64,000 nucleotides of DNA from Candidatus Woesearchaeota archaeon (GTDB taxonomy: Archaea; Nanobdellota; Nanobdellia; Woesearchaeales; JAFGLG01): contig JAFGLG010000005.1 in the NCBI GenBank assembly GCA_016928155.1, forward strand, positions 124,001 through 188,000. Direction: 5' to 3'. The notes below the pieces were generated by a model that was given only the letters and a program-made list of their open reading frames with translations, did no database searches and was not told where the DNA came from. Positions 3,641-54,071 of this stretch are shown piece after piece (position 1 is the first letter of the stretch; the number at the start of each line of letters is the position of its first letter). The translations under genes were made by a program, and so were the position numbers.

Positions 3641-4045
3641 ATGGCATTGATAGGTCTCAGAGGGTCGAACCACGACCTACTGCTGCGGGCATTCGAAAAA
3701 AGGAGCCTGATACTGGACTGCGCAAACTGTGCGAATCCGCATAGCCTGTTCCCTGAGATACCTTATGAGAAATTCCACGATGTATTTGTGCTGGAAGTCG
3801 AGATAATATACAAATTCAGGGACACTCTAAAGGAGATGGACCGGATAATGCAGAGCATCAGGGCAGAAAGACTCATTGTGACACCATTTGACAGACTGTT
3901 CTATTATGACGATGAGAAAGAGAGAGAAAATGTACTGGAACATGCATGGGAACTCATGAAAGGCATCTCAAAGAGATACGATGTTTATGTCGGGGTGAAA
4001 AAACAGGAGGATAACGCAAGAAGATACTGCGATAAGGTGATCTGA
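3641..4045 (+). CDS. Degenerate RecA/RadA-like protein, polymerase operon
   Basis: 134 residues. The N-terminus GLRGSNHDLLL aligns with a Walker A loop (GxxGxGKT) in which Gly-Lys-Thr has become Asn-His-Asp, so ATP binding is probably lost. LILDCANCANPHSLFP and RLIVTPFDRLFYYDD fit strands 2 and 3 of the RecA-fold core, the second in the place of Walker B. It is the first gene of a three-gene run with the polymerase; the TATA box TATTTATAC lies about 25 bases upstream. Archaeal polB2 genes are known, from memory, to sit beside inactive RadA paralogues, a layout compared with bacterial ImuA-ImuB-DnaE2. Inferred role: a non-catalytic accessory factor for the polymerase. Confidence 0.6.
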   Translation: MALIGLRGSNHDLLLRAFEKRSLILDCANCANPHSLFPEIPYEKFHDVFVLEVEIIYKFRDTLKEMDRIMQSIRAERLIVTPFDRLFYYDDEKERENVLEHAWELMKGISKRYDVYVGVKKQEDNARRYCDKVI

Positions 4046-4046
4046 T

Positions 4047-4349
4047 TTGGGGCACACAGTATGGAGCAACAGGATAGTCGTAGACATAATGCTGAATGAG
4101 CTGAAGAGCTTCGGCAAGGCGCTGCGCAAAGAGGACAGGGAGATATTCGAGAGACTCCTCAAGAAACCACTGAAGCACTTCGGCTCGATAACATATGCAA
4201 GCAGCATCCATGCTTGGGCGTTCATACTTATCTGCGTGATGCTTGAGCAGGAGAAGAGGATAAGAGATATCGAGGATAAACATGAGAGCATGGCTGATGG
4301 ATGCATACAGGAGGAAGAACTCGATAGTATTATGGCTGAAGACACCTGA
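4047..4349 (+). CDS. Small protein of the PolB2-type operon
   Basis: 100 residues with a TTG start two bases after the preceding stop, so translation is probably coupled. Helical, with RKEDREIFERLLKKPLKHFG and FILICVMLEQEKRIRDIE, the second resembling an amphipathic dimer helix. No enzyme motif is visible. Its 3' end overlaps the start of the polymerase gene by 68 bases in another frame, an unusually long overlap that itself supports a tight functional link. Probably a polymerase accessory or DNA-binding subunit, inferred only from context. Confidence 0.55.
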   Translation: MGHTVWSNRIVVDIMLNELKSFGKALRKEDREIFERLLKKPLKHFGSITYASSIHAWAFILICVMLEQEKRIRDIEDKHESMADGCIQEEELDSIMAEDT

Positions 4350-6840
4350 GAACATACAGATTGAGAGAGAATTCAAGACAGAGATATACCTGAACATACA
4401 AGAAGAATCCACAGAACTTCTCAGGAAAGAACGGATGCCCTATATTGTCGTTCAGAAGAAGACATACATGAGAGAATGGAAGAGCGTGTATTCCGTTCCT
4501 GTCTACAGGCTTGACCAATATGAAAGAATAGTGAGGTGGATAGAATACAAGACAAGGCACCGACTTCCGATGTACAATGCAGACATAGCGCCAGAACAGC
4601 ACTATCTCTATGAGAATGACCTTCGTCCATGCAGTGCAGTGGAGATCAGCGGGTCAAGGATAACCCCATTGAAGACAGATGAGACAGCAGTGATGAAGGT
4701 CATGAGAGTGAAAGTCATCTCTTCAGGCGATGTCAGGCAGAGCACAGAGATGCAGGTCAAAGAGATAATAGCAGACAGGAACAGATACCAGGGGAAGGAA
4801 GAAGTGATACTGCATGAGTTCGCAGAATATTTCAAGAGAGAGGACCCGGATGTTGTTGTCATGCAATATGGATTCTCAAGGCTCCCCTATCTTGTGAAAA
4901 GGATGGAAGGGCATGGTATTGGATGCCCGTTCCACCGCTGGGACCCTAAAGAGATAAAATACAAAGGAGGGAAATCATTCTACAGCTACGGCAATGTCAG
5001 ATACAGGGATTTTGCAGTCCGTCTTAATGGACGTTTCCTCATCGATACATCCTCCATGCTGGCAAGCGAATGCTCAGTGGACGGCATAGCAGAGCTGAGC
5101 TATCTCTCAGGAGTCCGCTTCCAGCAGATAGCATCGAGGAGCTTCGGAGCAGTTTTCCAGGGATCACTGGTGCGGCATATGATACAGCAAGGCATCCTGG
5201 TCCCATTCAAGGAGAAGCCAGTAGAGAAGCCGATGAGCATGTTCCAATTATTGAAGTCAGACAGGAGCGCACACACATATGACCCCAAGGTCGGGATGCA
5301 CCATGATGTTGCAGAGATAGATTTCTCGTCGATGTTCCCATGGCTCATCTTCAACCATAATATAAGTGCAGAGACGATACTGTCAGACAAAGGGCCGTTC
5401 GACAAGGTGCCTGGCATACCAGTGAGAGTATCATTGCAGCACAAAGGATTTGTGCCACTTGCGATAAAACCACTGCTCGATCGCCGTATGGAATACAAGA
5501 AGAATCCGACACGGGTCAACAAGGAGAGAGCAGTAGGCCTGAAATGGGTGCTTGTGACAAGCTATGGCTACCTGCGCTTCAGGGAATTCAAGCTCGGAGT
5601 GGCAAGCTCCCACATGGCCATATGCGCGTATGCAAGAGAAGTGCTGCTCAAGGCAGCGAAGCTTGCAGAAGACAGGGGCTTTGAGATAGTGCATGGCATA
5701 ATCGACTCGCTCTACATAAAGAAGAAAGGAGTGCAAGCTGATGAGGTCAAGGAGTTCTGCGAAGAGCTGCACCAGATAACAGGGATACCGATAAGCTTTG
5801 AGGGGATATTCAAGTGGATATGCTTCCTGCCGAGCGTGAATGACAATTATAGGCCAGTGCCCACAAGATTCTATGGAATATTCGACAATGGTGATGTGAA
5901 AGCAAGAGGGATCGAGGTGAGGCAGAGGAGCTGTCCGCTGATTGTGAAATATTTCCAGCAGAAGGTCCTGGAGAATATGGCAGGATGCGGGAATGAAGAG
6001 GAGATAAAGCAGATGATACCAGCATTCTACAGGATGCTCAGGAATACAGTGGACAGATTAGAAGAGCTTGATGCAGACTGGCTTGCAAGCTCAGTGTGTG
6101 CCGCGACATCTGACTACAAGCATGAGATAAGCCAGAAGAAAGCAGTCAGAGAGCTCAAGAAGAAAGGCATAAGAGTCATGCCAGGGCAGAAGATAAGCTA
6201 CATCTATGGAAAACATGGGATAGTGCTTCCAGAAGATTATGACATGAATCCTGATGTCATGCAGTACAGGAGACTCCTGATCAGGGCACTATATTCAGTG
6301 CTGCAGGTGTTCGGCATAACAAAAGAAGAGATCCGAGAAGGTATCATGGATGAGATGCAGACAAGGATAATGTGCATCCCGATGAGAAAGGATTTCAAGA
6401 ACAGGCGAGGATTATCAGAAAAAGAGCTGAGAAGGAGGCTTGAAAGGCATGGATGGCTTGTCTGGAGAGGGGACATGCTCGCTGCGATACGCACAAGAGA
6501 GCTGTATCCGAATGTCGAGAGAAAATATAAGATGCTGACTGATCTGCTTGAAAGGCATCACCCAGGCAGACTCGAAGAGCTACAGTACATATGCGCTGTG
6601 CATCATGGGATGCCAGATTTCCTCTGCTACAGGGATTGCAGGTTCAAATTCGTGGAATGCAAGCTCGAATATGAACCGCTGAGCGATGCGCAGAAGAGAT
6701 GCATCCGGCGGCTGGAAGGGATGGGGTTCGGTGTCGAGATACATAAGCTTGTGCAGAAGACCAGAATGAATGAAGCGGTTTATGTTGGAGATGAGAAGGT
6801 CATTATCGAAAAACAATTACCACTTAGGACGTTTGCATGA
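4282..6840 (+). CDS. Family B DNA polymerase (PolB2-like) fused to a VRR-NUC nuclease
   Basis: 852 residues. Polymerase motif A is DFSSMFPWLI with Asp347; motif B is KWVLVTSYG (Lys421); motif C reads HGIIDSLYI with Asp475, so the second Asp of the usual YxDTDS is kept and the first is Ile. The 3'-5' exonuclease is eroded: Exo I reads MRVKVISSG without the D-x-E, and Exo II (DPDVVVMQYGFSRLPYL) lacks its Asp. At the C-terminus HGMPDFL (Asp779) with FVECK (Glu792, Lys794) and LSDAQKR matches the PD-(D/E)xK core of VRR-NUC nucleases. Motifs A and C keep both catalytic aspartates, so synthesis is plausible, without proofreading. The start at 4282 is favoured because IVLWLKTPENIQIE fits the family N-terminus. 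Likely role: damage-tolerant synthesis or repair. Confidence 0.85.
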   Translation: MRAWLMDAYRRKNSIVLWLKTPENIQIEREFKTEIYLNIQEESTELLRKERMPYIVVQKKTYMREWKSVYSVPVYRLDQYERIVRWIEYKTRHRLPMYNADIAPEQHYLYENDLRPCSAVEISGSRITPLKTDETAVMKVMRVKVISSGDVRQSTEMQVKEIIADRNRYQGKEEVILHEFAEYFKREDPDVVVMQYGFSRLPYLVKRMEGHGIGCPFHRWDPKEIKYKGGKSFYSYGNVRYRDFAVRLNGRFLIDTSSMLASECSVDGIAELSYLSGVRFQQIASRSFGAVFQGSLVRHMIQQGILVPFKEKPVEKPMSMFQLLKSDRSAHTYDPKVGMHHDVAEIDFSSMFPWLIFNHNISAETILSDKGPFDKVPGIPVRVSLQHKGFVPLAIKPLLDRRMEYKKNPTRVNKERAVGLKWVLVTSYGYLRFREFKLGVASSHMAICAYAREVLLKAAKLAEDRGFEIVHGIIDSLYIKKKGVQADEVKEFCEELHQITGIPISFEGIFKWICFLPSVNDNYRPVPTRFYGIFDNGDVKARGIEVRQRSCPLIVKYFQQKVLENMAGCGNEEEIKQMIPAFYRMLRNTVDRLEELDADWLASSVCAATSDYKHEISQKKAVRELKKKGIRVMPGQKISYIYGKHGIVLPEDYDMNPDVMQYRRLLIRALYSVLQVFGITKEEIREGIMDEMQTRIMCIPMRKDFKNRRGLSEKELRRRLERHGWLVWRGDMLAAIRTRELYPNVERKYKMLTDLLERHHPGRLEELQYICAVHHGMPDFLCYRDCRFKFVECKLEYEPLSDAQKRCIRRLEGMGFGVEIHKLVQKTRMNEAVYVGDEKVIIEKQLPLRTFA

Positions 6841-7487: not shown

Positions 7488-8087
7488 ATGTGCGGCAGAT
7501 TCATCTTGACAGTGGATATCGGAGAGATATTGAAGAGATTCAAGGTAGAGACAGATATCAGAACGAATCCCAGACATAATATTGCACCGACACAGAACAT
7601 CCTCATAATCACTTCTCACGAGCCAAGCAAACTGAACATTGCCAGATGGGGGCTGATGCCATCATGGGCAAAGCACCCAATAATCAACACAAGAGAAGAC
7701 AGCATCACAAAACCCCTGTACAAATCGCTCAATAGATGCCTGATCCCTGCAGACGGTTTCTTTGAATGGAAGAAGGTAGGAAGCAAGAAGATCCCCTATT
7801 TCATATCGCTCAAAGGGAAGAAGATCTTTGCTTTCGCAGGTCTATGCAATCAGGAAGCCTGTTCAATCATCACAACAGCAGCAAATCAATTGGTGAAACC
7901 TATCCATGACAGGATGCCGGCAATACTTGAACAGAAAGAAGAGAGAAGATGGCTTAAAGGGATGGACAAGGATCTGCTGAGACCCTATCCTTCTGACGAG
8001 ATGCAATGCATACAGATAAGCGATCTTGTGAACTCACCGAAGAATGATAATCCTGAGGTCATCGCAGCCCAGAACCTGCTTAAATAG
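7488..8087 (+). CDS. SRAP-domain protein (YedK/HMCES family)
   Basis: 199 residues, close to the family's usual 200-230. The hallmark residues are present: Cys2 exposed after Met removal (MCGRF), the Asn of NPRHNIAPTQ, the Glu of GFFEWKK and the His of PIHDRMPAIL. The family forms a covalent thiazolidine link with abasic sites in single-stranded DNA and protects them during replication. The TATA-like CTATTTAAG lies about 35 bases upstream. It stands alone but lies close to the repair-type polymerase operon. Confidence 0.9.
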   Translation: MCGRFILTVDIGEILKRFKVETDIRTNPRHNIAPTQNILIITSHEPSKLNIARWGLMPSWAKHPIINTREDSITKPLYKSLNRCLIPADGFFEWKKVGSKKIPYFISLKGKKIFAFAGLCNQEACSIITTAANQLVKPIHDRMPAILEQKEERRWLKGMDKDLLRPYPSDEMQCIQISDLVNSPKNDNPEVIAAQNLLK

Positions 8088-9286: not shown

Positions 9287-12472
<3,186 letters not shown>

Positions 12473-13532: not shown

Positions 13533-15641
13533 ATGTGCGGCATCATAGGATATTTCGGGCCAGAGCTGGATAAAGAGAAGATAAGAGCAGCTTTTGCCCT
13601 GATAGAATCACGAGGGAAAGATGCATATGGATACAGCAATGGCTCTACAGTCGAGATCAAGAAGCATATAGACAGACTTTCGCTGAAGGATACAACAAAT
13701 TTCTTCTTACACAAACTCCATTCCATTGTCGGAAGCAGACCACAGCCATTCAAAGGCAAAGGGATCTTCATCGCGAACTGCGAGATATACAACTGGGAAG
13801 AACTGGACCAGAAATATGATCTCGGTGCAGGGAATGATGCAGAGCTGATGTTCAGGCTTATTGAGGAAAAAGGGACAGATGCACTTGATGAGTTTGATGG
13901 TGTCTATGCTTTCGCCTACTGGCGCGACGGAAAAGTGATCCTCGCCCGGGACATAATAGGAGAAAGACCAATATGGGTGTCAAGGACAACATTTGCCTTC
14001 AGCTCAGAGAAGAAAGTGCTGGAGGCAATGGGATTAGATGATGCAGAGGAGCTGAATCCTCGCAAGATACTGACCTATAAAATCAAGACCAAGGAGAAGG
14101 GATATGTCGAGAGAGAATTCTTCAAGACAGAACCACAGGTCAAGGATAATCTACAGGGAATAAAGAAGAGATTGAATGGGCTGCTCACAAATGCAATATC
14201 AAAAAGGGTGCCTGACACAAGGATCGGGGTGCTGTTCTCAGGGGGGATTGATTCAACACTCATTGCATTCATCCTAAAGGAATTAAGGGTAGATTTCACA
14301 TGTTATGCAGCGGGGCTTGTGCAGGAAGGGCTGAAAGAGGCAGAAGACCTTGTACATGCAGAGAAGATAGCAAAAGAATTAGGATTCCCGCTGAAGTTGA
14401 TAACAATAGGCCTGGATGAGGTTGAAGCATACCTGACAAAGATCGTGCCGCTCATCGAAGACAGCAATGTGGTCAAGGTAGGAGTTGCACTGCCATTCTA
14501 TCTGGCATGCGAAGAAGCGCAGAAAGACGGAGTCAGAGTGATATTCTCTGGCCTGGGAAGCGAGGAGATATTTGCAGGATACCAAAGACATGAGCAGAGC
14601 CAGGATATAAACAAGGAATGCCTGCACGGACTGCTGAAGATGTATGAGAGAGACCTATACAGGGATGATGTCATCACAATGCACCACAATATTGAACTGA
14701 GACTTCCATTCCTCGACAAGAAATTGGTTGGGTATGCACTGCAGATACCTGCAAAGTACAAAATAAAGGATGATGTGAAGAAATGGATAATACGCGAAGT
14801 GGCTAAGGATCTTGGAATGAAAGCTGAGTTTGCCATGCGGAAGAAGAAAGCAGCACAGTACGGCAGCAATTTTGACAAGGCAATACAGAAATTAGCAGCA
14901 AAGCAGAAGAAAAGCAAATCAGGATATCTGAGGGATTTCTATCCGACGCATAATCTCAAAATAGGTGTGCTTTTCAGCTCAGGCAAGGACAGCACTTATG
15001 CAATGCACATCATGATGAAGCAGAACTATGAGATAAGCTGCCTGATCTCCCTCAAGAGCAAGAATCCTGATTCCTATATGTTCCATACACCGAATATCGA
15101 CATGGTCAAACTCCAGTCAGAAGCACTCGGGATACCATTGATACTTGAAGAAACACAAGGAGAGAAGGAGACAGAGCTCGAGGACCTTGAAAAAGCGATC
15201 ATAAGAGCAAAAACAGAATATAGTATAGATGCAATATGCACAGGGGCCCTGTTTTCCAATTACCAAAGAGACAGGATTGAGAAGATATGCGACAGGCTCG
15301 GGCTAAAGATGTTCTCGCCGCTCTGGCACAAGGACCAGGAGCTTGAGATGAGGGAGATAATCAATGAGGGATTCAAGTTCATGATGAGCAGCGTCGCGGC
15401 AGAAGGGCTGGATGCAAGCTGGCTCGGTCGGGAGATAACCTTGACTGACGTCGACAAACTAGTTCAGCTGCACAGAAGGATCGGCCTGAATGTCTGCGGC
15501 GAAGGCGGGGAGTTCGAATCGCTCGTTGTCGACGGGCCGATATTCAGGAAAAGGATCATCGTCAAGGAATCTGAAGTCCTGACTGACGGATCAAACGCAA
15601 AGATCATAATAAAACAGGCCGGACTCATGGAAAAGACCTAA
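13533..15641 (+). CDS. Asparagine synthetase (glutamine-hydrolysing) fused to DPH6 diphthine-ammonia ligase
   Basis: 702 residues with three parts. Residues 2-180 are a class II glutamine amidotransferase (MCGIIGYFG with Cys2, NCEIYN, GNDAEL). Residues about 205-460 are an asparagine-synthase ATP-PPi domain with the P-loop FSGGIDST. Residues about 475-702 are a second ATP-PPi domain, the DPH6/ATP_bind_4 type (FSSGKDSTYAM, CTGALFSNYQRDR, CGEGGEFESLV). DPH6 amidates diphthine on elongation factor 2, the last step of diphthamide synthesis, normally with free ammonium. The fusion suggests that glutamine-derived ammonia could reach DPH6, or simply that the two were joined for co-expression. Leaderless start 25 bases after a TATA box. 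Confidence 0.9.
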   Translation: MCGIIGYFGPELDKEKIRAAFALIESRGKDAYGYSNGSTVEIKKHIDRLSLKDTTNFFLHKLHSIVGSRPQPFKGKGIFIANCEIYNWEELDQKYDLGAGNDAELMFRLIEEKGTDALDEFDGVYAFAYWRDGKVILARDIIGERPIWVSRTTFAFSSEKKVLEAMGLDDAEELNPRKILTYKIKTKEKGYVEREFFKTEPQVKDNLQGIKKRLNGLLTNAISKRVPDTRIGVLFSGGIDSTLIAFILKELRVDFTCYAAGLVQEGLKEAEDLVHAEKIAKELGFPLKLITIGLDEVEAYLTKIVPLIEDSNVVKVGVALPFYLACEEAQKDGVRVIFSGLGSEEIFAGYQRHEQSQDINKECLHGLLKMYERDLYRDDVITMHHNIELRLPFLDKKLVGYALQIPAKYKIKDDVKKWIIREVAKDLGMKAEFAMRKKKAAQYGSNFDKAIQKLAAKQKKSKSGYLRDFYPTHNLKIGVLFSSGKDSTYAMHIMMKQNYEISCLISLKSKNPDSYMFHTPNIDMVKLQSEALGIPLILEETQGEKETELEDLEKAIIRAKTEYSIDAICTGALFSNYQRDRIEKICDRLGLKMFSPLWHKDQELEMREIINEGFKFMMSSVAAEGLDASWLGREITLTDVDKLVQLHRRIGLNVCGEGGEFESLVVDGPIFRKRIIVKESEVLTDGSNAKIIIKQAGLMEKT

Positions 15642-46518: not shown

Positions 46519-46926
46519 ATGGACATCATCCTGGATGAATTCTGGAAGATACAGGACAAAGAGGGCTATGTCTCAGAAGAGGCCATGAAAAAGCTCTCGA
46601 AAAAGACAGGGATCCCGATAGTGAAGCTATATGCTGCAGCCTCATTCTATTCATTCATCTACACAAAGCCCCAGGGAAAATATGTGATAAGGCTGTGCAA
46701 CAGCCCATCATGCTATCTCAATGGAAGCCTTAACATAGCAGAATGGATTGAGAAAGAGCTTGGCATAAGATCAGGCGAGACCACAAAAGACAGACTCTTC
46801 TCATTCCACATAGGATCATGCATCGGATGCTGCAATGAAGCCCCAGCCATGATGATAAACGACAAGGTCTATGGAAATCTGACAGAGCAGAAAGTGAAGG
46901 GGATATTTGAAAAATGCAGAAAGTGA
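46519..46926 (+). CDS. [FeFe] hydrogenase small subunit, NuoE-like (HydC)
   Basis: 135 residues with the thioredoxin-like [2Fe-2S] domain: ligands in LCNSPSCYLNG and GSCIGCCNEAP. Ribosome site AAAGAGGTGGGTA. It is a minimal version of NuoE, lacking most of the N-terminal helical part. The next gene overlaps by 13 bases. In HydABC complexes this subunit relays electrons between the NAD site and the hydrogenase. Confidence 0.9.
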   Translation: MDIILDEFWKIQDKEGYVSEEAMKKLSKKTGIPIVKLYAAASFYSFIYTKPQGKYVIRLCNSPSCYLNGSLNIAEWIEKELGIRSGETTKDRLFSFHIGSCIGCCNEAPAMMINDKVYGNLTEQKVKGIFEKCRK

Positions 46927-48029
46927 AAGTGATGCAGATACTGAAGAAAGCCGACGGCGCGCTCGAGAAAGCAAAACAGCTCGGACCTGAGAGAGTGATA
47001 GAGCTACTCAACAAGAAGGACCTCAGGGGAAGAGGAGGAGCAGGATTCCATACAGGCAAGAAATGGGAGATGGCAAGGAATGCGCCTGGCGAGAAAAAAT
47101 ATGCGGTCTGCAATTCTGATGAAGGAGAGCCAGGCTCATTCAAGGACAAGTTCATATGGAACAATAATCCAGAAGCGGCCATCATAGGGCTCCAGACAGC
47201 TGCGTTCTGCATAGGGGCCCAAGAAGCGCTGATCTATCTGAGAGGAGAGTACAGATATCTCAAGAAGAATATTGAGAAGGCCATAACGAAGATAGGCGGA
47301 GTGCCAGTGAAGATCGTTGTCGGAGGAGGGGCATATGTGTGCGGAGAAGAGACAGCAATCCTTGAATCAATAGAAGGAAAAAGGGGCCAAGTCAGGAATA
47401 AGCCGCCATATCCAGTGACATATGGATTATTCGGGATGCCGACAGCAGTCAATAATGTAGAGACACTTGCAAATGTGCCACTTGCAGTGCTCTATGATGA
47501 CTGGGATCCCAACCTGCGGCTTTTCTCATTATCAGGCAATGTGACAAAGCCAGGAGTTTATGAACTGCATATGGGCAGCAAATTCTCAGATCTTTTGGAT
47601 CAGGGAAAACCAAAAAACAGGATAAAGGCTGCATTCTTAGGATGCTCAGGAGGAGTCATACCCTATGATCCTGACATGAGACTGACACCAGAACAGGTAT
47701 GTGATATGCGATGCAGGCTCGGATCAAGAAGCTTCATAGCAGCAGATGAGAAGCACTCAATAGTGGAGCTGGCTGCAAACATCGCAAAATTCTATGAATA
47801 TGAGAGCTGCGGCAAATGCACTCCGTGCAGGGAAGGCAACCACAGGATAGTCATGATACTTGAAAGTATGCTGGCGGGAAAAGGGAAGAGAGAGGACCTT
47901 GATACCCTGCAGGAGCTTGCAGAGGTCATAGAAGAGACATCAAGCTGCGGGCTCGGGCAGACATCAACACAGCACCTGAAGACAGGGCTCCAGCATTTCA
48001 GGAAAGAATTCGAGGCATTGATAAAATGA
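46914..48029 (+). CDS. [FeFe] hydrogenase flavin subunit, NuoF-like (HydB)
   Basis: 371 residues: the FMN- and NAD-binding fold (GRGGAGFHTGKKW, CNSDEGEPGSFKD, GGGAYVCGEETAILESIEG), the SLBB segment and the [4Fe-4S] motif ESCGKCTPCREGNHR. The usual N-terminal [2Fe-2S] domain and C-terminal ferredoxin domain of bifurcating HydB are absent, so it is a compact form. Overlaps both neighbours. It would oxidise or reduce NAD(H) for the hydrogenase. Confidence 0.93.
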   Translation: MQKVKVMQILKKADGALEKAKQLGPERVIELLNKKDLRGRGGAGFHTGKKWEMARNAPGEKKYAVCNSDEGEPGSFKDKFIWNNNPEAAIIGLQTAAFCIGAQEALIYLRGEYRYLKKNIEKAITKIGGVPVKIVVGGGAYVCGEETAILESIEGKRGQVRNKPPYPVTYGLFGMPTAVNNVETLANVPLAVLYDDWDPNLRLFSLSGNVTKPGVYELHMGSKFSDLLDQGKPKNRIKAAFLGCSGGVIPYDPDMRLTPEQVCDMRCRLGSRSFIAADEKHSIVELAANIAKFYEYESCGKCTPCREGNHRIVMILESMLAGKGKREDLDTLQELAEVIEETSSCGLGQTSTQHLKTGLQHFRKEFEALIK

Positions 48030-49696
48030 GAGTGAAAGTGGACGGCAAGGAGATGGAATTCGATGCACAAAAGAGCCTCCTGATAAATCTTAGAGCAAAA
48101 GGATTCTCAATACCATCGATGTGCTACCAGGAAGGGCTTGAAGCAGAAGCAAGATGCAGGCTCTGTGTCGTCGAGATAAAGGGAAAGCTGAAGACAAGCT
48201 GCTCGACATACCCGGAAGAGGGCATGGAGATCCTGACCAGTTCAGACAAAGTCAAGAGGGCGAGAAGGGTCAATGCAGAGCTGCTCTTTGCAGAGCACAG
48301 GAAATGCACCAATGTAGCCGGCCATGATAATGTATGCCAGATGATCGACGGCATAGAAAATATCGGCTCCAGATTCGAACCGAGAAAATCATATGAATCA
48401 GAGCTGGGGAATGCTGTGATAAGGGACAACAACCTCTGCATAAACTGCGGGAGATGCGTGCAGGTATGCGCAAAAGTCCAGGCGACATATGCCATAGATT
48501 TTGCAAAACGCGGCCATCATGAGCATGTCACGCCCTATTTCGAGCATAATCTCGCTGATGTGGCATGCACAAAATGCGGGCAGTGCATAGCAGCATGCCC
48601 TGTCGGAGCCATATCAGAAAGGGAGCACATCCCTGAAGTCCTCAGGGCGCTCAAGGACAAGAAAAAGACAGTGATCGCACAGACCGCACCTTCAATCAGG
48701 GCATCGCTTGGCGAGGAATTCGGCATGGAGCCAGGAACACTTGTGAAAGGGAAGATGGTGGCTGCATTACACAGATGCGGATTCGACAAGGTATTTGACA
48801 CAGACCTCGGGGCAGACATCACAATAATGGAAGAGGCATCTGAGTTCCTTGAAAGAGCGAAGAAAGGAGGGCCATTCCCGATGATAACGACGTGCTGCCC
48901 TGCATGGATAAAATGCATGGAGCATTTCTATCATGAGCTCATACCCAACATGAGCACATGCAAGAGCCCGCACACAATGCTTGGGATACTGATAAAGAAA
49001 TACTATGCAAAGAAAGAGGAGATACCTGAGAAGGACATTGTTGTGGTGAGCATAATGCCATGCACAGCAAAGAAATTCGAGTCAACAAGGCCTGAGCTCT
49101 CAGGGGATGTGGATTATGTGCTCACAACACGCGAGACTGCAAAGCTCATCAGGCTTCACAATATCGACTTCAGGAACCTGCCGGATGAAGAATTTGATCC
49201 TGCGCTCGGGATATCCACAGGGGCAGGAGTGATATTCGGGGCTACAGGGGGAGTCATGGAGGCTGCGCTCAGGACAGCATATGAATTAGGGACAGGAAAA
49301 AGCCTGACAAAGACAGAATTCGAACAGATAAGAGGCATGGAAGGCATCAAAGACGGAAGCATAATCATAAACGGTAATGAATACAGGTTTGCAGTGGCCA
49401 ACGGACTGGCACATGCGCGTGAGCTCATCAAGAAAAAGGATGATTATCATTTCATAGAGATAATGGCATGCCCCGGAGGATGCATAGGGGGAGGAGGACA
49501 GCCTCTGCCTGTGGATCAAGAGATACTGAAGAAAAGGATGAATGCATTATACCAAGAGGATGCCCTGCTCCCATTGAGGAAATCCCACGAAAATCCTATT
49601 GTCAAACAGATATATGCAGAATTCCTGGATCATCCTCTCAGCAAGAAGGCAGAGAAGCTATTGCACACAAGATACACAAAAAGAAGCCAGTTCTGA
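48026..49696 (+). CDS. [FeFe] hydrogenase catalytic subunit (HydA)
   Basis: 556 residues. N-terminal [2Fe-2S] ligands Cys33, Cys44, Cys47, Cys59; then a His/Cys cluster region HRKCTNVAGHDNVC (residues 91-104) that lacks one Cys of the usual H-x3-C-x2-C-x5-C; two [4Fe-4S] ferredoxin motifs (CINCGRCVQVC, CTKCGQCIAACP). H-cluster motifs are intact: TTCCPAW (Cys290 proton relay, Cys291), MPCTAKKFE (Cys346), MACPGGCIGGGGQP (Cys482, Cys486). The C-terminal small-subunit region is fused. It probably makes or uses H2 with HydB and HydC. Maturases HydE, HydF and HydG are not in this window. Confidence 0.95.
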   Translation: MRVKVDGKEMEFDAQKSLLINLRAKGFSIPSMCYQEGLEAEARCRLCVVEIKGKLKTSCSTYPEEGMEILTSSDKVKRARRVNAELLFAEHRKCTNVAGHDNVCQMIDGIENIGSRFEPRKSYESELGNAVIRDNNLCINCGRCVQVCAKVQATYAIDFAKRGHHEHVTPYFEHNLADVACTKCGQCIAACPVGAISEREHIPEVLRALKDKKKTVIAQTAPSIRASLGEEFGMEPGTLVKGKMVAALHRCGFDKVFDTDLGADITIMEEASEFLERAKKGGPFPMITTCCPAWIKCMEHFYHELIPNMSTCKSPHTMLGILIKKYYAKKEEIPEKDIVVVSIMPCTAKKFESTRPELSGDVDYVLTTRETAKLIRLHNIDFRNLPDEEFDPALGISTGAGVIFGATGGVMEAALRTAYELGTGKSLTKTEFEQIRGMEGIKDGSIIINGNEYRFAVANGLAHARELIKKKDDYHFIEIMACPGGCIGGGGQPLPVDQEILKKRMNALYQEDALLPLRKSHENPIVKQIYAEFLDHPLSKKAEKLLHTRYTKRSQF

Positions 49697-49863
49697 TCAT
49701 TTCTGATTTCCGAAAAAAAATTGAGAAAATAGGTTATTTAGAACAGATTTCCGTCGCTGATCAGATATTATCCGATTTCTCTGCAATATTATCATGAATC
49801 CTTGAAAAATCTTTTTTTAGCCTCAGATCAAATAGATTAACATAACCAACCCGAGGTGGGAAA

Positions 49864-50268
49864 ATGAGCTACAAAAAAAGAGGATTCACAAGCTTTCTTG
49901 GAAAAGCTGTGCTTGGTGCAGCGATATTCTATATAGGGCACTTTTCAGGAAGCAGTGAGATGAGGCAGTTCAAAAATGATATCCAGCAGGATGTCAGTGC
50001 AGTAAGCAGGTATATGCCGCCTGCACAGCAGAGAAATTATGTCGACGACTATGTATCTGGATTGACACCTAATGAGAGAGTGAAAACAATCTCAGGATAC
50101 ATACAGGAGATGCCTGACAGGGAACAGGAGATGCTGGCATTCAGGATGTACAATTCCCTGTCTGATCCTGCAAAGAGCCAGCTAAACCATATCATCGAAG
50201 GGGCTAACCCCCCAGACAGGTATGACAAGGCAGCAGGATTCATCAGGGAACTTGTGGGACAGTTCTGA
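49864..50268 (+). CDS. Small membrane-anchored protein, AAA+ operon
   Basis: 134 residues with a ribosome site (CGAGGTGGGAAA). One membrane helix near the N-terminus (GKAVLGAAIFYIGHFSG) and a helical soluble part (LSDPAKSQLNHIIEGANPPD). Basic residues before the helix place the C-terminal part outside. It is the first gene of a four-gene operon; the next starts 9 bases later behind GAGGTGACAAG. Confidence 0.6.
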   Translation: MSYKKRGFTSFLGKAVLGAAIFYIGHFSGSSEMRQFKNDIQQDVSAVSRYMPPAQQRNYVDDYVSGLTPNERVKTISGYIQEMPDREQEMLAFRMYNSLSDPAKSQLNHIIEGANPPDRYDKAAGFIRELVGQF

Positions 50269-50277
50269 GGTGACAAG

Positions 50278-51270
50278 ATGGAATACCAATCATCATTTGT
50301 CAGGCAGAAGATGGAATCAAAAGATAATGGATACGACATCCTCCATGCAGAGAACCAGGCACCGATGACATCGGCAACCTCATTCCTGGAGAAGAACCAC
50401 CCGATATTCGAGGAATCCATGAGGGTGCTTCAGGAATGCCAGAGAGAATATGACCGTGTGGCAAATGAGTACGGAGGAATCGCCGGCAAGGTGATGATAG
50501 CACTGAACCTCACAACACCGAAAAAGAGGCTTGAGAAGAGGGTTGCGAACCTAGAGTTCAACATCAGTGTCCTCGAGGAGATAGTGACGCATTCAGAGCA
50601 GTCCATAAAAGATCTGCATGGGCACTACATGTCAAGCTCAAGGGCCAAGATCGTGGCAGGCAGGAGCATGCAGGGCTATGAAAAGGTCGGCAAGGACATC
50701 GAAGAGCAGGCCGCACTCCTCATTGAGGATTACAACAGGTGCGATGATGAGGCCCTGAAGCTAGAGATAGAGAATGAGCTGTTCAGCCTTGAGCAGGACA
50801 GGCAAAGGGTGAAAGGGGAGCAGGAAGAATGCGCTGCGGAGATAATATTCCTCGACAATGCACTTGGCTCGCTCAACAAGTACAAGTCAGCAATGGGAAG
50901 CCTGACAAAGACAGCGAGGGCAGCGCTCAACTCAGGCAGGCTAATCAAGCGTGAGGTGGAATCATCACTGCCGTATGTTGTCAAGGGGCAGGAGACACTC
51001 AGCGCAATACAGGACATCTACCAGAACATACAGGCGCTCAAGACTGACCTGAGCAGGATATATGAAGTGAACCTCCGGAGCGTCGCTGAAGTGACAAAAT
51101 ATCACCTTGACCCATCGACAGCAAGGCTCGTGGATCCGGGGAAGACAAAAGCAGACGACTACAGCTCAAAAATAAAGGACAATATGGCAAAAGGGAGGGA
51201 CACGCTGATCGATCAGGCAATGAAGATCATCGATAGGGACAGGAACAAGAAGAAGGGAAAAGATGCTTGA
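50278..51270 (+). CDS. Coiled-coil protein, AAA+ operon
   Basis: 330 residues, almost entirely helical with long coiled-coil stretches (RLEKRVANLEFNISVLEEIV, LFSLEQDRQRVKGEQEECAA). No membrane span and no Cys-rich module. Its helical-hairpin character is loosely like PspA/ESCRT-III or TelA proteins, but no diagnostic motif is visible. It overlaps the ATPase gene by 8 bases. Likely a substrate or adaptor of the ATPase. Confidence 0.6.
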   Translation: MEYQSSFVRQKMESKDNGYDILHAENQAPMTSATSFLEKNHPIFEESMRVLQECQREYDRVANEYGGIAGKVMIALNLTTPKKRLEKRVANLEFNISVLEEIVTHSEQSIKDLHGHYMSSSRAKIVAGRSMQGYEKVGKDIEEQAALLIEDYNRCDDEALKLEIENELFSLEQDRQRVKGEQEECAAEIIFLDNALGSLNKYKSAMGSLTKTARAALNSGRLIKREVESSLPYVVKGQETLSAIQDIYQNIQALKTDLSRIYEVNLRSVAEVTKYHLDPSTARLVDPGKTKADDYSSKIKDNMAKGRDTLIDQAMKIIDRDRNKKKGKDA

Positions 51271-52666
51271 GCTAAGGATAAGTGAAGAGGAGATATCACA
51301 GGCCACAGAGAAGGCATGCGAGAGGCTGAACAATACAATATACAGCTTCAGGAGCTTCTTCAATAACCTCTACAGCAACAGGATGAGACAGGATGGGCTT
51401 GAGTCAATAATAAGGTTTGAGCGATTCCTGGGCATGCAGGGATGCATAAAAGAAAGATGCAGAAGGGCCCTCAGGATAGACCTTAACAGGGAGCTCACGA
51501 TAGAGGAAGACCATCATCTGAACCTGTATTCCCTCATGAGATCAGCAGAAAGGTCCCTTAAAGAGCGCCATGACGCAGACCCAGAGACATGCGAGCTCTC
51601 ATTCGATTATCAGGCAGGGGAATACAGCCTCATAGATTCAATAATCAGGGGCTACATGAACGGAGCCAGAAGAAGACCAGACAGCATGCCGCAATACACA
51701 GATGATTTCCTGACAAGGATACTGGATGAGACATCGATGCTGACAAAAAAGACCGGCAGAGAGAAGATCAGGATCTCATTCAATGGCGACAAGAAAAAGG
51801 CATCAAACATCAGGCACAAGGACTATTCTGAGATCATAGGCGCGGAAGAGGCAGTGCACACACTGAGATATACAATAAGCAGGCTGTGCTGCTATGACCC
51901 TGAGCAGCAGAAGAACATCTATTCAGGCTCACTGCCAAAGTCAATCCTCCTGTACGGACCTCCCGGCTCAGGGAAGACAAGCCTGATAGATGCATCAATA
52001 GGGTATGCGCAGATGCTCTGCGACATGAAAGGCATGCCCTTCAATCCCGGTGTCATAGACAACTCCCTGAAATCCATGTGGATGGGGAAATCAGTGGAGA
52101 ACATCAGGAGGATGATCGAGGATGCCAGATCACCTGACGGGGCAGGCCTCATAATCATCGATGACTTCGACATGGTGCTGAACAGCAGGCAGAGCAAGGA
52201 ACAGAATTTCGGCGAGGTCCAGGTGCTGCATGAGCTTCTCAACCAGATATCAGGATACGGGCACAATAATGATGGGAATCATATCTATCTGCTGACGAGC
52301 AACATGCCTGGCGCTGCAGATACAGCCCTGTTCGACAGGATAGAAGAGAAGATCCCGGTTAGAGGATGCTGCACCCAGGAAGATTTCAAAGAGCTCCTGA
52401 ATAAAGAGCTGGGCACATACAGGGATCATGCTGATGATGGAGTGATCGAGAAGCTATCATCAGACCTCGGGAGGATGGGTGCATCAGGAAGGACAGCAAC
52501 AAGGATGGCCAGATCAATGATAAGATACATCGACCACAGGATACCTGGACCAGAGTTCATCTGCGCGCCATATCATATCCAGGCCGGACAGAACAACGGA
52601 TACAGGAGATTCAGCATGAAAGAATTGGGGATCCTGGACCAGCCTGAGGTCAGATCATATGTATAA
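51263..52666 (+). CDS. AAA+ ATPase of unknown system
   Basis: 467 residues. N-terminal 190 residues are helical and unassigned. AAA core: Walker A GPPGSGKT (232-239), Walker B LIIIDDFD (Asp300-Asp301, so Asp replaces the usual catalytic Glu), sensor 1 LLTSNMP, then DTALFDRIEEKIPV, and a small helical lid. This is the classic-clade single-domain type (katanin/Vps4/CDC48-like core) by pattern. It overlaps both neighbours by 8 bases, so it probably acts on the coiled-coil or TPR partner. Confidence 0.75.
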   Translation: MLELRISEEEISQATEKACERLNNTIYSFRSFFNNLYSNRMRQDGLESIIRFERFLGMQGCIKERCRRALRIDLNRELTIEEDHHLNLYSLMRSAERSLKERHDADPETCELSFDYQAGEYSLIDSIIRGYMNGARRRPDSMPQYTDDFLTRILDETSMLTKKTGREKIRISFNGDKKKASNIRHKDYSEIIGAEEAVHTLRYTISRLCCYDPEQQKNIYSGSLPKSILLYGPPGSGKTSLIDASIGYAQMLCDMKGMPFNPGVIDNSLKSMWMGKSVENIRRMIEDARSPDGAGLIIIDDFDMVLNSRQSKEQNFGEVQVLHELLNQISGYGHNNDGNHIYLLTSNMPGAADTALFDRIEEKIPVRGCCTQEDFKELLNKELGTYRDHADDGVIEKLSSDLGRMGASGRTATRMARSMIRYIDHRIPGPEFICAPYHIQAGQNNGYRRFSMKELGILDQPEVRSYV

Positions 52667-54071
52667 ATCAGGCTTTGTGAAGAGGTGGGAGCAGAGGAGA
52701 GAAGAGTTCAGGAAAGAGCTTGAGAATCTTGTTCTCGAAGATTATGAGACCAAGCTGAGCAGGTTCTCCGGGGAGATGGACCTGGAGAAGGCTAGAGAGG
52801 CACTCGGGAAGCAGGCAGGATTCGATGAGATAAGAAGATATGACCAAGAGGCATATGTATTCCAGGAAAGCCTTGACGCAGGACTTTATCCCAAGGCGCA
52901 GAGGCTCCATTCGATGAACGCCCATACCCTCAGAGTGCAATCATCAGCAAGGGAATATATTTCAGCAATATTCAGCCAGACCACCTCTGAATTCAGGAAA
53001 ACAAAGAAAGAGCCCCTGAATATCCACAAACTTGAATCATGCTACAACCAGATGCAGGAGATTGCAGGCATACTGGGCAATGAAGGAAGATTCTCTGGTG
53101 AGCTTGACACTGCAGAGGCCGGATTGAAGAGAGTCTACAGGAGAATAGCTGCCAATGATCCAAAAAAAAGGAAGGTGAGAAAAATGAGAAGAGCTGCTGC
53201 AACACTGGCATTGATCGCATGCCTTGCCGGCGCCGGCTATGCGAAAAAGGAGCATATCCAGTCGTGGATAAACCCAAAGATAAGCTCATATTATCTGAAA
53301 CAGAGCAAGGAAAGCGCCGGCCTTGAGAGGAAGCTTGAGCTCAGCTACAAAGCACTCGAGAGGGACGAAAGCCCTGAAGCTCTTGCTTTCCATAATGAGG
53401 CATATGAACGCTACATGATGAAGCACGGCCAGAAAGAGGGGAAACCTGGGATGGAAAGCATGCTTAATACACTGAGAGCCCACAAAAGAGCAGCTGAAAA
53501 ACCCCAGCCTTTCTCTGCGATCGAGCATATCATACAGGGCATATACGCACAGGACACGCAGGCCGGCATGCACCATTACAGTGAGGCCATAAAGCATGAC
53601 AGGCATCTGCTCGTGCCATATTTCAGGATGGCAAAAATCTATTCAGACATGGATGAGAAGGAGAACATGCTCAGGATGATGGAATCTGCACACAGGATAG
53701 CCCCTGACAACATGAGGATCTGTCAGGAATACGGGTGGAGCCTCTTTGTCAACAGGCAGTACTTTGATGCCGCAGATGCACTGTCAGGGGCTGTAGATGA
53801 CAAGAGCGGGGCAGACTTCCACGGGGCGCTGGGGACCTCCCTGGCATACACAGGCAGGGCTGAGCAGGGCATGAAGCATCTGCAGATTGCCGTCGACAAA
53901 GACCAAAAAAATGCTGCCTGGCAGACCCAACTCGGAGCACTCCACTACAGGCAGGGAGATCTTGCCAGGGCGAGGACCCACCTATACATTGCATACAGGA
54001 ACGGCGGCGACCAGGAACTTATCAGGATCATAGAAAAGATTGATTCTCGTCTACAAGAACACAAAAAATGA
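52659..54071 (+). CDS. Membrane protein with C-terminal TPR repeats, AAA+ operon
   Basis: 470 residues. Residues 1-165 are a charged helical cytoplasmic region; a basic stretch (KKRKVRKMRR) precedes one membrane helix (AAATLALIACLAGAGYA); residues about 215-470 are TPR-like repeats (LLVPYFRMAKIYSDMDE, EYGWSLFVNRQYFDAADALS, GTSLAYTGRAEQGMKHLQIA, LGALHYRQGDLARARTHLYI). The positive-inside rule puts the TPRs outside the membrane. It is the last gene of the operon and could link an inside ATPase to an outside partner. Confidence 0.7.
   Translation: MYKSGFVKRWEQRREEFRKELENLVLEDYETKLSRFSGEMDLEKAREALGKQAGFDEIRRYDQEAYVFQESLDAGLYPKAQRLHSMNAHTLRVQSSAREYISAIFSQTTSEFRKTKKEPLNIHKLESCYNQMQEIAGILGNEGRFSGELDTAEAGLKRVYRRIAANDPKKRKVRKMRRAAATLALIACLAGAGYAKKEHIQSWINPKISSYYLKQSKESAGLERKLELSYKALERDESPEALAFHNEAYERYMMKHGQKEGKPGMESMLNTLRAHKRAAEKPQPFSAIEHIIQGIYAQDTQAGMHHYSEAIKHDRHLLVPYFRMAKIYSDMDEKENMLRMMESAHRIAPDNMRICQEYGWSLFVNRQYFDAADALSGAVDDKSGADFHGALGTSLAYTGRAEQGMKHLQIAVDKDQKNAAWQTQLGALHYRQGDLARARTHLYIAYRNGGDQELIRIIEKIDSRLQEHKK

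Follow-up and report, generated by a model that had tools for sequence, protein, structure and literature searches.

The window, a 64,000-nucleotide stretch of DNA from the Woesearchaeota, archaea of a small, uncultured group, encodes an 852-residue protein (4282–6840, + strand) in which a DNA polymerase of the PolB2 family, the archaeal translesion 'extender' group, carries a C-terminal VRR-NUC nuclease domain. The polymerase and its operon are those of the known PolB2 mutasome; the new part is the nuclease. On balance, we consider it probable that this mutasome (iRadA–PPB2–PolB2) has gained, at the C-terminus of its polymerase, a FAN1-type, PCNA-linked, structure-specific nuclease that operates with it in a cut-and-extend manner. 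Direct support comes from the identities of the domains, the operon, the conservation of the active sites, the recurrence of the polymerase–nuclease link and, in a structural model, the topology of a helical insertion in the nuclease.

The open reading frame begins within the PPB2 gene, overlapping it by 68 nt, and the same overlap is found in relatives. The N-terminal and degenerate exonuclease region (residues 1–265; 4282–5076, +) was delineated by alignment with the genome's PolB genes and with other PolB2 sequences; the acidic residues of Exo I–III are lost, and Pfam returned only a sub-threshold echo of the exonuclease domain (15 bits). The polymerase palm, fingers and thumb (residues 266–690; 5077–6351, +) were assigned from Pfam, invariant columns, AlphaFold and matches to family B polymerases in the PDB. 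A DNA_pol_B match covers residues 296–644 (44.6 bits, cut-off 23), and the catalytic residues Asp347 and Asp475, the latter in an IID motif, are encoded at 5320–5322 and 5704–5706 (+). A flexible junction with a degenerate PIP-like motif (residues 691–708; 6352–6405, +), recognized by pLDDT and a motif census, leads into the FAN1-type VRR-NUC domain (residues 709–822; 6406–6747, +), in which VRR_NUC (PF08774) matches residues 769–820 with 28.3 bits (cut-off 23.8) and, in a second search, with 30.5 bits. In the AlphaFold2 model, pLDDT is mostly >90 over residues 1–690, drops below 50 at residues 691–710, consistent with a disordered joint, and is followed by a folded domain extending to about residue 822. 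A Foldseek search with the full-length model returned polymerases only, and the nuclease domain was therefore modelled and searched alone.

A sequence-only reading of this DNA had proposed a family B polymerase with Asp347 and Asp475, fused to a VRR-NUC core with Asp779, Glu792 and Lys794. All five residue numbers are right, DNA_pol_B lies above its cut-off, and so does the C-terminal domain in the PF08774 profile search that the reading had suggested as a check; the three nuclease residues are conserved in 30/30 related domains. The presence of a nuclease domain was thus confirmed, while its boundary, placed at residue 740, was wrong, the domain starting at about residue 709 with a GLSE motif.

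The polymerase part is PolB2. The NCBIfam model for archaeal type B polymerases (NF004416) scores 348 bits over residues 4–681, below its equivalog cut-off of 516, and identity to the PolB2 proteins of archaeal loci with a PolB2 operon ranges from 28 to 56%. In an alignment with L001, a proofreading PolB encoded by the same genome, the acidic residues of Exo I, the Asp of Exo II and the Exo III segment are missing from the fusion protein, whose residues 473–475 read IID where L001 has DTD; the D327-R328 motif is invariant among the aligned PolB2 sequences. This alignment bears out the previously noted loss of the Exo I and Exo II acidic residues and of the first Asp of the DTD motif. 'Eroded proofreading' is nonetheless not special to the fusion protein, because all exonuclease motifs and the first Asp of DTD are lost as standard throughout the PolB2 family, an active translesion extender (PMC8764526, PMC11791011). 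Sulfolobus Dpo2 shows these losses too; it is an active polymerase able to extend mispaired ends, and the only PolB2 for which translesion extension activity is known (PMC8764526). The earlier description of a B-family polymerase with inactive proofreading was therefore sound as far as it went; it overlooked the PolB2 identity, the operon, SRAP, the PIP-like motif and the helical insertion.

No Y-family polymerase was detected in the genome by a search that was positive in 11 of 14 control genomes, which makes PolB2 the main translesion candidate. The same 1.48 Mb genome also encodes L001 and L002 (on contigs C7 and C9), B-family polymerases whose DTD motifs are intact. Leptospira phages (records KF114879, KX656785, KF114880 and KF114878) have a PolB that shares 28% identity with the polymerase part, over at most 79% of the query; like the relatives on haloarchaeal plasmids, they match the polymerase part only. 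Single-protein and alignment queries of viral contigs found no relatives of either polymerase or nuclease, and hence no sign of a viral source; in genome contigs, the single-protein query gave nothing and the alignment query found relatives.

The operon opens with iRadA (3641–4045, +), a truncated, ATPase-less RadA/Rad51 homologue of 134 residues. It is followed by PPB2 (arCOG07300; 4047–4349, +), a small helical PolB2 partner of 100 residues with a TTG start, recognized by iterated HMM searches. These two genes lie directly upstream of PolB2, and SRAP, an HMCES/YedK-type abasic-site protein (7488–8087, +; Pfam SRAP, 184.6 bits), lies downstream. Both iRadA and PPB2 are described partners of PolB2 in a translesion mutasome (PMC11791011, PMC4104785), and iterated HMM searches recovered homologues of both next to PolB2 in almost all of 80 archaeal PolB2 loci. 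A profile built from the iRadA set matches archaeal RadA in the PDB (E 2e-17). The N-terminal arm of PPB2, a motif described in PMC11791011, is conserved, reading MGHT in the window and MGRT elsewhere. Compared with the ~240-residue forms, the window iRadA lacks half of the protein at the N-terminus and the tail at the C-terminus. Shortening at both ends characterizes Woesearchaeal iRadA, in which the PIP-like tail, found at the C-terminus of many of the ~240-residue iRadA proteins of other archaea, has been lost. SRAP falls within the PolB2 locus in 8 of 19 Woesearchaeal loci versus none of 61 other archaeal loci; an enrichment of SRAP near PolB2 has already been published (PMC11791011).

Further along the + strand, the window encodes a 1056-residue DNA gyrase subunit B (9302–12472) with an intein at about residues 425–854 and a weak HNH signal; a 702-residue protein (13533–15641) that joins a glutamine amidotransferase/asparagine synthase part to a diphthamide synthase domain (Diphthami_syn_2, 246 bits); and an [FeFe]-hydrogenase (48026–49696) that combines ferredoxin domains with domains of the large and small subunits. 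Neighbouring reading frames at 46914–54071 may encode [FeFe]-hydrogenase maturases.

The nuclease domain is highly conserved at its active site: beyond the three core residues, Glu713, the last residue of the GLSE motif (residues ~709–713), and Gln804 are likewise invariant in the 30 related domains. A profile of the nuclease family searched against the PDB gave FAN1 as the best match (E 2e-6), followed by the stand-alone VRR-Nuc protein 4qbo (0.02). Modelled alone from 8 sequences, the domain reached a pLDDT of 76 and a helix-strand-three helices-strand-strand-helix-strand topology (a-b-aaa-b-b-a-b), with a helical insertion between strands 1 and 2 that this moderate-confidence model places at about residues 731–774. 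The model aligns with 4qbn, 4qbo and FAN1, and the PD...ExK active site is conserved in 30/30 sequences. Over model span 1–119, 112–117 residues align with human FAN1 at ~20% identity (Z about 8); 81 residues align with stand-alone VRR-Nuc 4qbn (Z near 8), and 95–99 with Hjc resolvases, which tie with FAN1 (Z near 8; 8.4 for archaeal Hjc). According to a proposal by Pennell et al. (PMC4103454), FAN1, a monomer that cuts flaps, differs from the dimeric, junction-resolving VRR-Nuc proteins by a helical insertion at this position, which would block dimerisation and give FAN1 its preference for 5' flaps. With this position filled by an insertion in the model, monomeric cutting of flaps or branches appears likelier than Holliday junction resolution. 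The genome encodes only this one VRR_NUC domain, and separate genes for Hjc and for a FEN1 family nuclease; the VRR-NUC is therefore not needed as sole resolvase or flap nuclease.

Polymerase and nuclease are linked repeatedly in Woesearchaeales. Among 352 genomes of the order, PolB2 was found in about 27, two of them with partial genes, and strong matches to the nuclease family in 33. The two are fused in seven of the ~27 PolB2 genomes, representing six families (G000, G085, G271, G031, G293, G130 and G267), in each case with one open frame across the joint. The search for other polymerases with the same fusion, which the sequence-only reading had proposed, thus yielded independent orthologues in six other genomes; because of these and of the invariant nuclease residues, the fusion ORF is a real protein, neither a chance product nor an assembly artefact. 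In three genomes (G003, G134 and G171) the nuclease gene directly follows PolB2, whose end it overlaps in G003, and in six both genes are present but apart. The PolB2 proteins of the adjacent-gene group form a clade of their own (support 100/100), as do their nucleases (100/100); the link is therefore found in two lineages and takes two forms. The nuclease is present in 16 of 27 PolB2 genomes versus 17 of 325 others (Fisher p 5e-12, shared ancestry ignored), and the association persists when only unlinked genes are counted (6/17 versus 17/325; Fisher p 4e-4, likewise ignoring shared ancestry). PolB2 can do without the nuclease, since ~11 of the 27 Woesearchaeal PolB2 genomes are without it and 17 genomes have the nuclease and no detected PolB2; in many genomes it stands alone in unrelated contexts. 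Fusion status is scattered on the PolB2 and nuclease trees, and the fused nucleases are dispersed, but a single fused clade is not rejected (p-AU 0.21), which fits one fusion event within the fused lineage as well as several. Outside the order, Pfam found VRR_NUC in only one of 35 PolB2 genomes, and the pairing therefore looks limited to Woesearchaeales, to which the nuclease family itself is almost confined within the phylum sample.

The junction between the two halves carries a second recurrent feature. In 17 of 30 proteins, a PIP-like motif, QxxLxxF/Y, precedes the nuclease by 23–29 residues, compared with 1.6 expected from shuffling: six of the seven fusions have it (QSRLEEF in orthologue G031), and so do 11 of 23 nucleases not fused to PolB2. 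Within this clade, PolB2 proteins that are not fused often terminate in it as well. Its presence on both sides suggests, at the level of sequence, a PCNA link for each half in this family; human FAN1 is linked to PCNA through a PIP motif (PMC5648898). In the window protein, the corresponding segment is degenerate (EMQTRIMCIP), making PCNA binding through the junction site unlikely there. Stand-alone nucleases with a near-canonical N-terminal PIP box (for example RQTTLLEF) occur in genomes without detected PolB2 (L015, L016, L130, L132, L133, L135, L137 and others), and probably constitute a PCNA-bound VRR-NUC family of Woesearchaeales.

For the polarity and substrate of the nuclease, its monomeric state, PCNA binding and the cooperation of the two active sites, we infer the following. 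At a stalled fork or a damage-induced gap, iRadA and PPB2, joined in most orthologues by PCNA, would keep the complex on the primer end. There, the proofreading-less PolB2 would extend mispaired or lesion-opposed ends, and the flexibly tethered VRR-NUC, acting as a monomer, would incise a 5' flap or branched strand situated in front of the primer or across from it. The cut might fall in a displaced flap, in the arm of a fork, or beside a bulky or crosslinked adduct, and cutting and filling would take place within one complex. A dedicated role in lesion or crosslink repair had been suggested before: lesion repair is upheld by the family and the operon, and a crosslink becomes one of several possible substrates. 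A bolder version, which we regard as possible and rather doubtful, is that the single polypeptide performs FAN1-type unhooking or incision of a damaged or blocked strand and then Pol zeta-like extension past the lesion. If true, the protein would be a one-protein counterpart of the incision and bypass steps of the eukaryotic Fanconi pathway, which otherwise reside on separate proteins, set in an archaeon without a detectable Y-family polymerase.

The same domains could serve recombination-linked synthesis instead, with PolB2 extending an invading strand and a dimeric VRR-NUC cleaving Holliday or D-loop junctions and so resolving the joint. In its favour, stand-alone VRR-Nuc proteins resolve junctions as dimers (PMC4103454), archaeal Hjc (Z 8.4) is among the top structural matches of the model, and iRadA, the partner protein, is homologous to Rad51. 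Yet the strand 1–2 position said to block dimerisation is occupied by a FAN1-type insertion, the genome has an Hjc of its own, and iRadA is without its ATPase half; we regard this reading as unlikely. The link might also be incidental, a loosely associated nuclease gene drifting into the PolB2 locus and out of it again, with no functional coupling. The scatter of fusion status on both trees, the nucleases found alone in unrelated contexts and the several PolB2 proteins without a nuclease fit such drift, which is made quite improbable by the linkage of two separate PolB2 clades to the nuclease, through fusion and through neighbouring genes, by the co-occurrence of unlinked copies with PolB2 and by an active site that is intact in every fused copy.

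The exonuclease regions are inactive in all fused polymerases, and other PD-(D/E)xK enzymes can be exonucleases; the nuclease might then substitute for the lost proofreading by trimming the 3' primer end. PolB2, however, is a mismatch extender that does without proofreading throughout archaea (PMC8764526), and known FAN1/VRR-Nuc enzymes cut 5' flaps and degrade DNA in the 5' to 3' direction (PMC4103454), which leaves this substitution very improbable. Finally, the separate neighbouring genes of three relatives might point to an assembly or gene-calling error that joined two such genes; with the unbroken frame in seven genomes of six families, this explanation has next to no chance and is refuted.

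A full-text search of open-licence literature found no published description of a PolB–VRR-NUC fusion, in agreement with the sequence-only reading, which knew of no VRR-NUC fusion to an archaeal B-family polymerase. VRR is absent from the PolB2 mutasome paper, a PolB diversity survey and a bacterial polymerase survey; the only fusions reported in the PolB2 survey are iRadA–PPB2 and PPB2–PolB2 (PMC11791011). A 2025 paper on viral PolB fusions describes a helicase–PolB fusion and a separate BRO-N–VRR-NUC protein. The Woesearchaeal protein ties a translesion extender in cis to a putative structure-specific nuclease, which would make the hand-over between nuclease and polymerase during lesion bypass directly testable with one purified protein and two point mutants. 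It also places a FAN1-type nuclease domain, with its insertion, in archaea and inside a DNA-damage operon. As the accessory factors of the PolB2 mutasome are poorly understood, the nuclease offers a gene-neighbourhood clue to what the mutasome acts on.

Compared with the PolB2/Dpo2 mutasome of Sulfolobus islandicus and the bacterial G2 group, the locus shares the three-gene operon and its order, the lost exonuclease site, IID, the D(K/R) motif and the SRAP neighbour (PMC11791011, PMC8764526); it differs in the VRR-NUC fused to PolB2 and in an iRadA shortened at both ends. With the VRR-Nuc domain of FAN1 (human, Pseudomonas), its best PDB profile match, the nuclease shares the catalytic signature and the helical insertion between strands 1 and 2, and most fusions carry a PIP-like motif that may link them to PCNA, as the PIP motif of human FAN1 does (PMC5648898). 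Unlike FAN1, the protein is archaeal, is fused to a polymerase, has its PIP-like motif beside the nuclease and has no SAP, TPR or UBZ-type domains; Pfam gave no SAP or TPR match in it, and the N-terminal part is polymerase. Because SAP and TPR domains are absent, the protein is not a FAN1 and resembles the FAN1 nuclease domain in its working at most. The stand-alone VRR-Nuc proteins of phages and bacteria (4qbn, 4qbo) share the core fold and the active site; unlike the domain described here, they are without the long insertion, and they resolve four-way junctions as dimers (PMC4103454). A functional analogy, with no kinship implied, is with eukaryotic Pol zeta and the Fanconi nucleases, where an exonuclease-dead B-family extender likewise works with structure-specific nucleases; there these are separate proteins, and here they are one.
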